A DNA stretch of 64,000 bases, taken from Actinomycetota bacterium (GTDB taxonomy: Bacteria; Actinomycetota; Humimicrobiia; Humimicrobiales; Humimicrobiaceae). Of the stretch, positions 46,137-49,477 are shown one piece after another. Where the stretch lies: NCBI GenBank assembly GCA_028698215.1, contig JAQVDY010000003.1, positions 1-64,000 of the forward strand, written 5' to 3'. How positions within the stretch are numbered: position 1 is the first letter of the stretch; every line of letters begins with the position of its first letter. The position numbers were made by a program, and so were the translations under genes. The notes beneath the pieces were generated by a model, which saw nothing but the letters and a program-made list of their open reading frames with translations, was not told the DNA's origin and did not search any database.

Positions 46137-48299
46137 ATGGTTTCTCCACAGACAGAAATAATAGTGGGAGTTTTAGAAAGAATTTTATTCAATAACCCCG
46201 AAACTGGTTTTTTAGTGGGTAAAGTTCGGCTTGATGCCAATCATCAATTAGTGACCATCGTGGGAAGCTGCCCTGACATGGAATGCGGGCAACACTTGGA
46301 GATTAAAGGGCAATGGAGCCAGGATCCCAAATATGGCCGCCAGTTTAAAATAGATAACACTAAGATGATAGCACCCCAGACCTGTGAAGGCATAGAAAAA
46401 TACCTGGGTTCAGGCCTTATAAAAGGAATAGGCCCCGCTATGGCCAAAAAAATTGTAAACAAGTTTCAAATGGAAACTTTAAACATACTGGAAAAAGATC
46501 CCGGAAAGCTTTCCCTGATAGAAGGTTTTGGGCCCCAGCGGATAAAAAATATTAAAAAAGCATGGGATAAACACCGGGACCTCAGGGAAGCTATGGTATT
46601 TTTAAGGACCTATGGTTTAGGGCACGCTTTATCAATTAAAGTATATAGGCACTATGGTAAAAAGTGCATAGATATTATCAAAAAGAATCCCTACCGTTTA
46701 TGTGAAGATATATTTGGAATCGGGTTTAAAACGGCAGACCTGATTGCTGTAAATATGGGAATAGAAAAGGATTCTATCTTTAGGGCCAAGGCAGGTATTA
46801 TTTATTTATTGGAAAACATGGAGAGTGCCGGCCATTGTTATCTACCATATCAACAGCTAATAGACAGTGCTGCTGATTTTTTACAGGTTGAGGTTAGCCT
46901 GGCCCATAAAGCGGCAGGGCAACTTAAGCAAGAGAAAAAAGTAGTTATAATACAGGACTATGAACCAAGGATTTATCTAAAAGATATATATGAGTCAGAA
47001 ATTTATGTTTCCAAAAAATTACGCCAAATTCAAGATAAGGGTTTAAAAGAAAGCAAGGCAAAGATAATAAATTTAACTGAAACCATGGAGAAGCTAGCCG
47101 GACAAAATAATATTTTTTTAGATACTGAACAGACACAGGCTATTATTGCCGCCAACATTGAAAAGGTGCTGGTTATCACTGGCAGCCCGGGTACAGGCAA
47201 AAGTACTATCATGAACTTTGTATTAGCTACATTGAGGTTGAATAAAAAAAAGGTAATGCTGGCGGCACCTACCGGCAGGGCGTCCAAAAGGCTTTCCCAA
47301 ACTACGGGCAAAGAAGCTAAGACCATTCACCGGATGTTAAAATATAATCCTAAAACCAATAGTTTTATCATGAATGAAAAGGATAGGTTAAATGCTGATG
47401 TGCTGGTAATAGATGAAGCTTCCATGATAGATATCAGGCTTTTTTATGCCTTGCTGAAAGCAGTTAAAGAAGAATCCCAGCTGATACTGGTAGGGGATGC
47501 TGACCAGTTACCATCAGTAGGTCCTGGCAATATATTAAAGGATATAATTGACAGCCGGAGGTTTCCGGTAATCACCTTAAAAAAAATATACAGGCAGGAA
47601 GGACAAAGCTTAATTATACAAAATGCCCACAAAATAAGGGATGGAATTTTCCCTTATACTGGGAAACCTAAGAATGACGACTTCTTTTTCATAGAAAAAA
47701 ATGATCCCCAGCAGGTGGTAGACCTTATAATGGATCTGGTTCTGCAGAAGCTTCCAAAACGGTTTGGGTTTGATCCCTTGAGCGATATACAGGTATTGGT
47801 GCCCACTAATAAGGGTATTGTAGGAGTTGAGAATTTGAACCGGTCCCTTCAGGACCATATAAATACCAGCAGCTTAAAAATTAATGGAAACGGTATAGAA
47901 TACAGGCTAAATGATAAGGTGATACAGTTAAAAAATAATTATGAAAAGGATATTTATAACGGGGATATCGGGTTTATAAAATATATTGAGCCAAAACTAA
48001 AGGAAATAACCGTTAATTTTGAAGGCAGGAATATTCTATATAATTTTTATGAACTAGATGAAATAAGCTTATCTTATGCCATATCTATTCACAAGTCCCA
48101 GGGATCTGAATTTCCCTGTATTATTGTACCTATCCTTACTTCACATTATATGCTGCTGCAAAGGAATTTATTGTATACTGCTATCACCAGGGCTCAGCAG
48201 GTAGCAGTGCTTATTGGTTCAAAAAAAGCAATGGGGATAGCCATAAACCGTAATATTGTGGGAGACAGATTTACCGGGCTAAAAGAAATGCTGGTTTAG
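46137..48299 (+). CDS. recD2: RecD2/YrrC-family DNA helicase
   Basis: RecD2 is a 5'-3' superfamily 1B helicase not tied to RecBC and linked to DNA repair and fork progression. The 720-residue product has an N-terminal OB-like domain (VLERILFNNPETGF, GQWSQDPKYGRQF), helix-hairpin-helix repeats (GIGPAMAKKIV, IEGFGPQRIKNI), Walker A GSPGTGKST (about 349-357), DVLVIDEASMID Walker B, and a C-terminal SH3-like and motif VI region (ISIHKSQGSEFP, LYTAITRAQ). This gene is not standard between proS and nusA, where Bacillus has polC. Confidence 0.93.
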   Translation: MVSPQTEIIVGVLERILFNNPETGFLVGKVRLDANHQLVTIVGSCPDMECGQHLEIKGQWSQDPKYGRQFKIDNTKMIAPQTCEGIEKYLGSGLIKGIGPAMAKKIVNKFQMETLNILEKDPGKLSLIEGFGPQRIKNIKKAWDKHRDLREAMVFLRTYGLGHALSIKVYRHYGKKCIDIIKKNPYRLCEDIFGIGFKTADLIAVNMGIEKDSIFRAKAGIIYLLENMESAGHCYLPYQQLIDSAADFLQVEVSLAHKAAGQLKQEKKVVIIQDYEPRIYLKDIYESEIYVSKKLRQIQDKGLKESKAKIINLTETMEKLAGQNNIFLDTEQTQAIIAANIEKVLVITGSPGTGKSTIMNFVLATLRLNKKKVMLAAPTGRASKRLSQTTGKEAKTIHRMLKYNPKTNSFIMNEKDRLNADVLVIDEASMIDIRLFYALLKAVKEESQLILVGDADQLPSVGPGNILKDIIDSRRFPVITLKKIYRQEGQSLIIQNAHKIRDGIFPYTGKPKNDDFFFIEKNDPQQVVDLIMDLVLQKLPKRFGFDPLSDIQVLVPTNKGIVGVENLNRSLQDHINTSSLKINGNGIEYRLNDKVIQLKNNYEKDIYNGDIGFIKYIEPKLKEITVNFEGRNILYNFYELDEISLSYAISIHKSQGSEFPCIIVPILTSHYMLLQRNLLYTAITRAQQVAVLIGSKKAMGIAINRNIVGDRFTGLKEMLV

Positions 48300-48319
48300 G
48301 TTTTACTACTGTCACTATG

Positions 48320-48347
48320 TTGAATTTTTTTTATTTTATGTTATACT
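48320..48347 (+). promoter_or_regulatory. Promoter of the nusA-infB operon
   Basis: TTGAAT (48320-48325) and TATACT (48342-48347) are 16 bases apart, 20 bases after the recD2 stop. A start near 48354 would place the intrinsic terminator at 48381 about 27 bases into the nusA leader. Box sequences and spacing match those upstream of rpmF. Confidence 0.65.
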
Positions 48348-48380
48348 AAAAACAAATTTCAGTAGCAATAATGTTTAAGG

Positions 48381-48409
48381 ATAGTGGGCATGCCCCACTA
48401 TTTTTATTG
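48381..48409 (+). terminator. Intrinsic terminator / attenuator in the nusA leader
   Basis: ATAGTGGG (48381-48388) pairs perfectly with CCCACTAT (48394-48401) around the loop CATGC, followed by TTTTTATTG. This is the clearest intrinsic terminator in the window besides the pyr attenuator. It would end recD2 transcripts. Because a good promoter lies upstream and nusA begins 27 bases downstream, it also stands in the path of nusA transcription, so it may act as an attenuator. Confidence 0.8.
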
Positions 48410-48436
48410 TTTATCTAATTTTAAAGGTGATGAGAT

Positions 48437-49477
48437 TTGAATAGAGAATTAATAGTGGCTTTAAGGGAGCTGGAAAAAGAGAAAGGTATCAAAATGGATA
48501 CCATAATAGAGGCGTTAAATGTTGCCCTTAATTCTGCTTATAAGAAAAATTATAAAATTGATTATGACAGCAGGGTTGATGTAGATACAGAGACTGGTGA
48601 AATAAAGGTATTTAAAGTTTTGACCGAGGAAGAGAAAGCTGACAGTAATGAAGACGAACTGGAAGTTACCCCTGATAATTTCGGCAGGATTGCTGCCCAG
48701 ACAGCTATGCAGGTTATAAAGCAGAGGATTAAAGAAGCTGAACGGGAAATTATGTATGATGAGTTTAAGGACAGGGTTGGTGATTTGGTCACAGGGATTA
48801 TACAGCAAAGCGATACCAGGTTTACTTTAGTGGATCTTGGAAAGGTAGAAGCTTTGTTGCCCCAGCATGAACAGGTTGCCAATGAAAGATATAAACATGG
48901 GGAGAGAATAAAAGCTTATATCTCGGAAGTAAGAAAGACTACCAAGGGACCCCAGGTAATAGTATCCCGGACCCATACAGGTCTTATTAAAAAATTATTT
49001 GAACTTGAAGTGCCTGAAATCGGGGAAGGTATTGTAGAAATAGTAAATATCGCCAGAGAGCCTGGTTATAGGACCAAGATTGCAGTTAAGTCAAATGATA
49101 AAAACGTTGACCCGGTAGGTGCTTGCGTGGGACCCAAAGGCTCCAGGGTAAGAATGGTGGTAGATGAACTGGGTGGAGAAAAAATAGATATCGTATGCTA
49201 CAGCGAAGATGTAGTAGACTTTATAAAGAATTCCTTGTCACCGGCCAGGGTAACCAAAGTGCTGACTGAAGAGGAAAGAAAGTTTGCCCTGGTAGTAGTT
49301 CCGAATGACCAGTTGTCGTTAGCCATAGGAAGAGAAGGTCAAAATGCCAGGCTGGCAGCCAAGCTTACTGGATGGAAGATTGATATTAAGAGCCAAAAAC
49401 AATTTGATGAAGAGCTAGAGGAAGCCCGGAGAGAAAGATTGAAGACCAGGCAACATTCGGAGGAGCAAGAGCAATAA
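48437..49477 (+). CDS. nusA: Transcription termination/antitermination factor NusA
   Basis: NusA binds RNA polymerase and modulates pausing, termination and antitermination. The 346-residue product has the N-terminal polymerase-binding domain (1-125), an S1 domain (about 135-200, GDLVTGIIQQSDTRF, VEALLPQHEQ), and two KH domains (VGACVGPKGSRVRMV; LAIGREGQNARLAAKLTGWKID in part). It lacks the C-terminal acidic repeats of E. coli NusA, as in Gram-positive-type NusA. Start is TTG 48437, nine bases after the AGG of AAGGTGAT. rimP, the usual upstream gene, is missing. A terminator in its leader suggests self-regulation. Confidence 0.96.
   Translation: MNRELIVALRELEKEKGIKMDTIIEALNVALNSAYKKNYKIDYDSRVDVDTETGEIKVFKVLTEEEKADSNEDELEVTPDNFGRIAAQTAMQVIKQRIKEAEREIMYDEFKDRVGDLVTGIIQQSDTRFTLVDLGKVEALLPQHEQVANERYKHGERIKAYISEVRKTTKGPQVIVSRTHTGLIKKLFELEVPEIGEGIVEIVNIAREPGYRTKIAVKSNDKNVDPVGACVGPKGSRVRMVVDELGGEKIDIVCYSEDVVDFIKNSLSPARVTKVLTEEERKFALVVVPNDQLSLAIGREGQNARLAAKLTGWKIDIKSQKQFDEELEEARRERLKTRQHSEEQEQ

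Follow-up and report, generated by a model that had tools for sequence, protein, structure and literature searches.

A rimP-leader-type attenuator predicted directly before nusA in a class of Actinomycetota with apparent loss of rimP

The rimP-leader, which precedes the rimP-nusA-infB genes, has been described as more ubiquitous than any other transcription attenuator (Naville and Gautheret 2010, PMC2965389). In the parts of that paper cited here, its terminator lies 4-130 nt before the first gene and the motif occurs nowhere else in the genomes concerned. Conservation of the stem and the lack of an antiterminator led its authors to a protein effector, probably NusA; RimP and NusA were weighed without a test. 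A 2025 review (PMC12288461, in the portion used here) describes Bacillus subtilis nusA as autoregulated through NusA-stimulated intrinsic termination in the nusA leader, and NusA as most active at weak hairpins and interrupted U tracts. RNA-seq of the Streptococcus agalactiae rimP-nusA-infB operon placed termination 31 nt past the start, with short and long RNAs sharing one start, and NusA feedback was proposed (PMC4448216, likewise in the portion used here).

We analysed a 64,000-nucleotide stretch of DNA (the window) from an Actinomycetota genome of 1.78 Mb in 63 contigs. From sequence comparison and by analogy with the systems above, we consider it probable that the nusA leader in this window is a promoter-proximal attenuator of the rimP-leader type, which would control nusA and the genes behind it with feedback from NusA.

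Promoter, hairpin and leader upstream of nusA

The first gene past the leader is nusA (48437..49477, + strand; TIGR01953 above cut-off), which begins with a TTG codon at the position given by the first-pass annotation and is followed by frames that include infB and rbfA (names from the first sequence reading). Its ribosome-binding site is AAAGGTGAT (48423..48431, +), and similar AGGTGA-type sequences stand before nusA in relatives. The upstream gene, which lies outside the switch, is recD2 (46137..48299, +; named from sequence reading), with its stop ending at 48299.

Between the two genes we read a -35-like hexamer, TTGAAT (48320..48325, +), and an extended -10 element, TGTTATACT (48339..48347, +), in which TATACT occupies 48342-48347, TG stands one base 5' of it and the spacer to TTGAAT is 16 nt. 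Re-reading the sequence confirmed the earlier placement of this promoter, TTGAAT-16-TATACT ending at 48347. The predicted transcription start, 7 nt past the -10 element, is 48354 (+). The candidate terminator hairpin, ATAGTGGG-CATGC-CCCACTAT (48381..48401, +), joins arms at 48381-48388 and 48394-48401 through eight perfect pairs around the five-base loop CATGC, and lies 38 nt from nusA. It is followed by the tract TTTTATTGTTTAT (48402..48414, +), which is interrupted by A at 48406 and G at 48409. The earlier description of a perfect eight-base-pair hairpin with a T tract at 48381-48409 is therefore right about the hairpin and needs amending for the tract. With a predicted stability of -14.7 kcal/mol, the hairpin is not clearly weak; the whole 107-nt leader has an ordinary stability (z -1.43).

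Counts of promoter-like sequences in the window are near the level expected by chance: 20 sigma-70-like promoters against a shuffle mean of 23.6, one TTGAAT-N15-17-TATAMT in 64 kb against 0.32 expected, and seven TGnTATAMT against 8.7 expected. The promoter alone is thus not significant within this genome. The hairpin motif is significant: AGTGGG-N3-10-CCCACT-N0-2-T4 has a single match in the window and is absent from all 100 shuffles. A candidate second copy elsewhere in the same genome (L002) proved to match over 30 bases within coding sequence and to lack the hairpin.

The 40 leaders of the class, compared below, contain no antiterminator, since leader sequence pairs with the 5' arm at a median of -0.8 kcal/mol at best, against a median of -12.4 kcal/mol for the hairpin. 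Nor is a sensor or ligand-binding domain visible in these 40 leaders, and the window matches no riboswitch or other Rfam family at the gathering score or up to E 10. Small frames present in some leaders were considered as leader peptides and set aside, as none is common to the family or has a consistent ribosome-binding site; a 15-codon frame from the ATG at 48373 (48373-48418) spans the window hairpin and recurs at the same length and place only in G003. The sequence AATAG, conserved 5' of the stem and reminiscent of the boxC site of mycobacterial NusA, was considered and rejected, as it is not conserved outside the family.

Conservation of the unit in family and class

NusA was found in all genomes examined, 35 of the family and 40 of the class. 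Conservation of the promoter-hairpin pair, which the first-pass annotation had named as a check on its reading, extends throughout the class (40/40 genomes), and it is this conservation that shows both elements to be real. In the family, a GTGGG...CCCAC hairpin precedes nusA in 35/35 genomes; an unfiltered search of the same stretch for the best -10 gives TGnTATA(A/C)T in all 35, at 30-40 nt from the stem in every case. The -35 element is TTGAAT in 21/35 and variable in the rest, and the spacer is 16 nt in 26/35. A second family (four genomes, G036-G039) and a third (one genome, G035) have the same unit, and over the 40 leaders the predicted start, again taken 7 nt past the -10, lies 23-35 nt from the stem. 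An extended -10 (TGnTAnnnT) stands 18-45 nt before GTGGG in 40/40 class genomes (shuffles, mean 3.5 and maximum 9; control window, 6/40); the class copies, G035 excepted, were chosen with a -10 filter, and the strict hairpin motif independently gives one place per genome. That motif, AGTGGG-N3-10-CCCACT-N0-2-T4, is found in 39/40 class genomes, at a single place in each when opposite-strand matches are counted as the same hairpin, and always in a nusA or rimP-nusA leader. The fortieth genome, G028, has one changed base, GGTGGG. In 14 leaders (G010-G017, G019, G025-G027, G029 and G030) the strict motif matches the other strand too, so there the hairpin could terminate in both directions.

Hairpin and nusA are 35-50 nt apart in 31 of the 35 family genomes and 79, 90, 181 (G034) and 189 nt (G032) apart in the others, so that 33/35 fall within the published 4-130 nt range. 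Across the class, the hairpin lies 131-242 nt upstream of nusA in six genomes (G032, G034 and G036-G039), where a second promoter may lie in between. The T tract is broken in 23/35 family genomes, with A or G following the five T that come after CCCACTA; 7/35 have an uninterrupted T8 tract.

Because the window hairpin sits between recD2 and nusA and would also block read-through from recD2, it might be simply the terminator of the recD2 unit, with nusA transcribed from elsewhere. We regard this as very improbable, since the gene upstream is not constant and in one case points away from the leader: many genomes have recD2 there and the rest have different genes (named by eye), while promoter, hairpin and spacing stay, and in G028 the closest large frame on the upstream side lies on the opposite strand, with only a 53-codon frame on the + strand intervening. 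Moreover, the promoter precedes the hairpin in every class genome, the same unit precedes rimP in other Actinomycetota, and mere termination would not require the stem to have a fixed sequence. As the hairpin-nusA distance and the upstream gene vary while the promoter-hairpin spacing is steady, the unit travels with nusA and not with the gene upstream.

The main structural fact is the invariance of the core sequence, which goes beyond what pairing requires. GTGGG/CCCAC is the same in all 40 class genomes, and its five pairs are unvaried across 35 distinct alignment rows. Among these rows, the pair next to the core is A-U in 34 and G-U in one; the one beyond that is U-A in 25, forms some other standard pair in five and is broken in five; and the inner c-g position is paired in nine and absent in 26. 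Two-sided changes affect two of ten pairs, a number equalled by 390 of 500 shuffles, so support from covariation is nil by this measure; a covariation score lies above all 500 shuffles, an excess that kinship among the rows can produce. Termination alone does not account for such extreme stem conservation, and the invariant GTGGG core suggests recognition by something. This weighs against a passive attenuator, at which a fixed fraction of transcripts would end whatever the supply of NusA, keeping basal expression low. Such a device would fit the lack of a visible sensor domain, but the invariant core and the reported autoregulation of B. subtilis nusA through leader termination (PMC12288461, portion used here) both speak for regulation, and we think a passive attenuator unlikely.

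Apparent absence of rimP and the gene probably served by the leader

The RimP N-terminal domain (RimP_N) was detected in only one of the 40 class genomes (G035), and likewise the RimP C-terminal domain, whereas 10/10 bacterial control genomes were positive for both. Of the 17 class genomes with completeness of 90% or more and contamination of 5% or less, none has a detectable RimP. Each of the 39 class genomes without detected RimP has the leader directly before nusA; in G035, rimP sits between leader and nusA. In a tree of NusA and IF-2 (21 genomes, 898 columns) the class is monophyletic (support 100/99) and G035 falls beside the other two families jointly (87/80). This order has moderate support, and it fits a single loss of rimP after which all 39 searched genomes of the two families retained the leader. 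A very divergent RimP may nevertheless be present in the class.

The missing RimP, a widespread ribosome maturation factor that appears to have been lost, is an observation in its own right: a survey of the phylum detected it in 335 of 396 genomes that are at least 90% complete. Among the 20 genomes listed of the 61 without RimP, 18 are class members (16 from f1 and two from f3). We place no trust in its absence elsewhere in the phylum, because some other families give weak matches (E about 1e-4). Two further peculiarities concern G035. Its nusA frame (contig C28, 14264-15242; L091 and L092) is split into two overlapping pieces, by an assembly error or a real frameshift, and a reverse-transcriptase-like frame (identified by eye; L092:1103-1621, - strand) stops immediately ahead of the hairpin of the rimP leader and shares sequence with the promoter region.

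A phylum-wide search for GTGGG-N3-10-CCCAC-N0-3-T4 gave matches in 188 of 396 Actinomycetota. Forty out-of-class copies were picked by hand from the matches listed so as to span families (mostly CCCACT, and not a random sample); 36 of these share the strand of rimP and precede it by 35-107 nt, and the other four (L155, L156, L162 and L165), away from rimP and nusA, were counted as misses. Next after rimP comes nusA in 35 of the 36, the stretch for the remaining copy (L140) ending before nusA is reached. An extended -10 (TGnTAnnnT) stands 18-45 nt before GTGGG in 34/36 rimP copies, its end falling within 18-33 nt in these 34 (200 shuffles, mean 1.5 and maximum 5; upstream control window, 0/36). 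A loose GGG/CCC pattern in four Firmicutes genomes was uninformative. The strict motif was then searched in 148 genomes sampled from the class of one of these four, a Ruminococcus record, and matched 23 of them. It precedes rimP in nine, and seven of the nine also have an extended -10 18-45 nt away; as the other 14 genomes carry it away from rimP, its specificity is lower in this class.

What is new here is the apparent absence of rimP from 39/40 class genomes that have kept the leader before nusA. Searches of the open-licence literature brought up no description of a nusA leader without rimP. A lineage of this kind amounts to a natural deletion experiment: it separates the two candidate effectors, RimP and NusA, and the apparent loss of rimP points to nusA, and away from rimP, as the gene served by the switch. 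It also argues against RimP as the effector in this class. That some other protein acts here (NusG, another product of the operon, or a further protein that reads the GTGGG stem or its DNA) would accord with a stem sequence conserved beyond the needs of pairing and with the frames past nusA named infB and rbfA. Yet the effector reported in B. subtilis is NusA (PMC12288461), and RimP, the other effector weighed in the parts of PMC2965389 cited here, is not found in 39/40 class genomes; we hold a different effector to be quite improbable.

Proposed mechanism and comparison with known leaders

NusA feedback is the best reading because the leader is of the rimP-leader type and NusA-stimulated termination is reported for the nusA leader of B. 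subtilis. On this proposal, transcription would start at about 48354 and meet the intrinsic terminator about 30 nt later, where part of the polymerases would stop and release a useless RNA of about 55 nt. Plentiful NusA would join the young elongation complex, slow it at the interrupted T tract and aid hairpin formation. High NusA would then mean more termination and less nusA expression, and scarce NusA would allow read-through, with no ligand-binding domain, antiterminator or conserved leader peptide involved. The first-pass proposal that transcripts would have to read through the promoter-terminator unit for nusA to be expressed fits all the comparative evidence. We infer the start site, termination itself and the part of NusA as effector; the presumed NusA dependence of the window's terminator is carried over from B. 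subtilis. Several observations weigh against the proposal: the chance-level promoter in this genome, a hairpin that is not especially weak, the uninterrupted T8 tract of 7/35 family genomes, a stem more conserved than termination would call for, and the long hairpin-nusA distance in six class genomes.

The conserved spacing adds the promoter itself to the features of the rimP-leader, a point not discussed in the parts of PMC2965389 cited here, and suggests that the decision is taken within the first 60 nt or so. Tentatively, the unit of extended -10, 18-42 nt and GTGGG hairpin, which this class has in common with other Actinomycetota and some Clostridia, might be a promoter-proximal gauge of NusA loading, in which a terminator near the start would read whether NusA has replaced sigma on the newborn polymerase; judging by the rimP-less class, such a gauge would belong to nusA, with rimP only a passenger. 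As a minimal, ligand-free attenuator, the predicted element could be tested with purified polymerase and NusA.

The first-pass annotation had noted that attenuation in the E. coli nusA operon leader is known by other elements. This comparison was too narrow: the rimP-leader type is widespread and E. coli has one too. The Gammaproteobacteria rimP leader (Rfam RF01770), viewed on the E. coli sequence, shares a GGGC...GCCC T-tract hairpin before rimP, and differs in its length of about 100 nt and in a second, upstream terminator hairpin; its covariance model gave no match to the window at the gathering score or up to E 10, and scored 102 bits on the E. coli control. The S. agalactiae leader (PMC4448216, portion used here) resembles the present one in a terminator close to the start and in the NusA feedback proposed for it. 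There, however, rimP is present and termination was mapped, whereas here termination is predicted from sequence. NusA autoregulation in B. subtilis (PMC12288461) offers the likeness of an intrinsic terminator in the 5' leader that gates entry into the gene, from which NusA dependence here is drawn by analogy; the B. subtilis leader before rimP (ylxS) is about 180 nt long (PMC2965389), against about 30 nt from predicted start to stem here, where rimP is absent. With the rimP-leader as described in the cited parts of PMC2965389, our element shares a terminator with conserved G-rich 5' and C-rich 3' arms and a T tract in the leader of a nusA-infB operon, the lack of an antiterminator, the usual distance to the first gene and a motif unique in each genome. 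It differs in standing directly before nusA and in that the inner C-G of GGGc...gCCC is mostly missing in the family. Since the first gene is not rimP in 39/40 class genomes, we file the element as a variant of the rimP-leader and not as a plain member.
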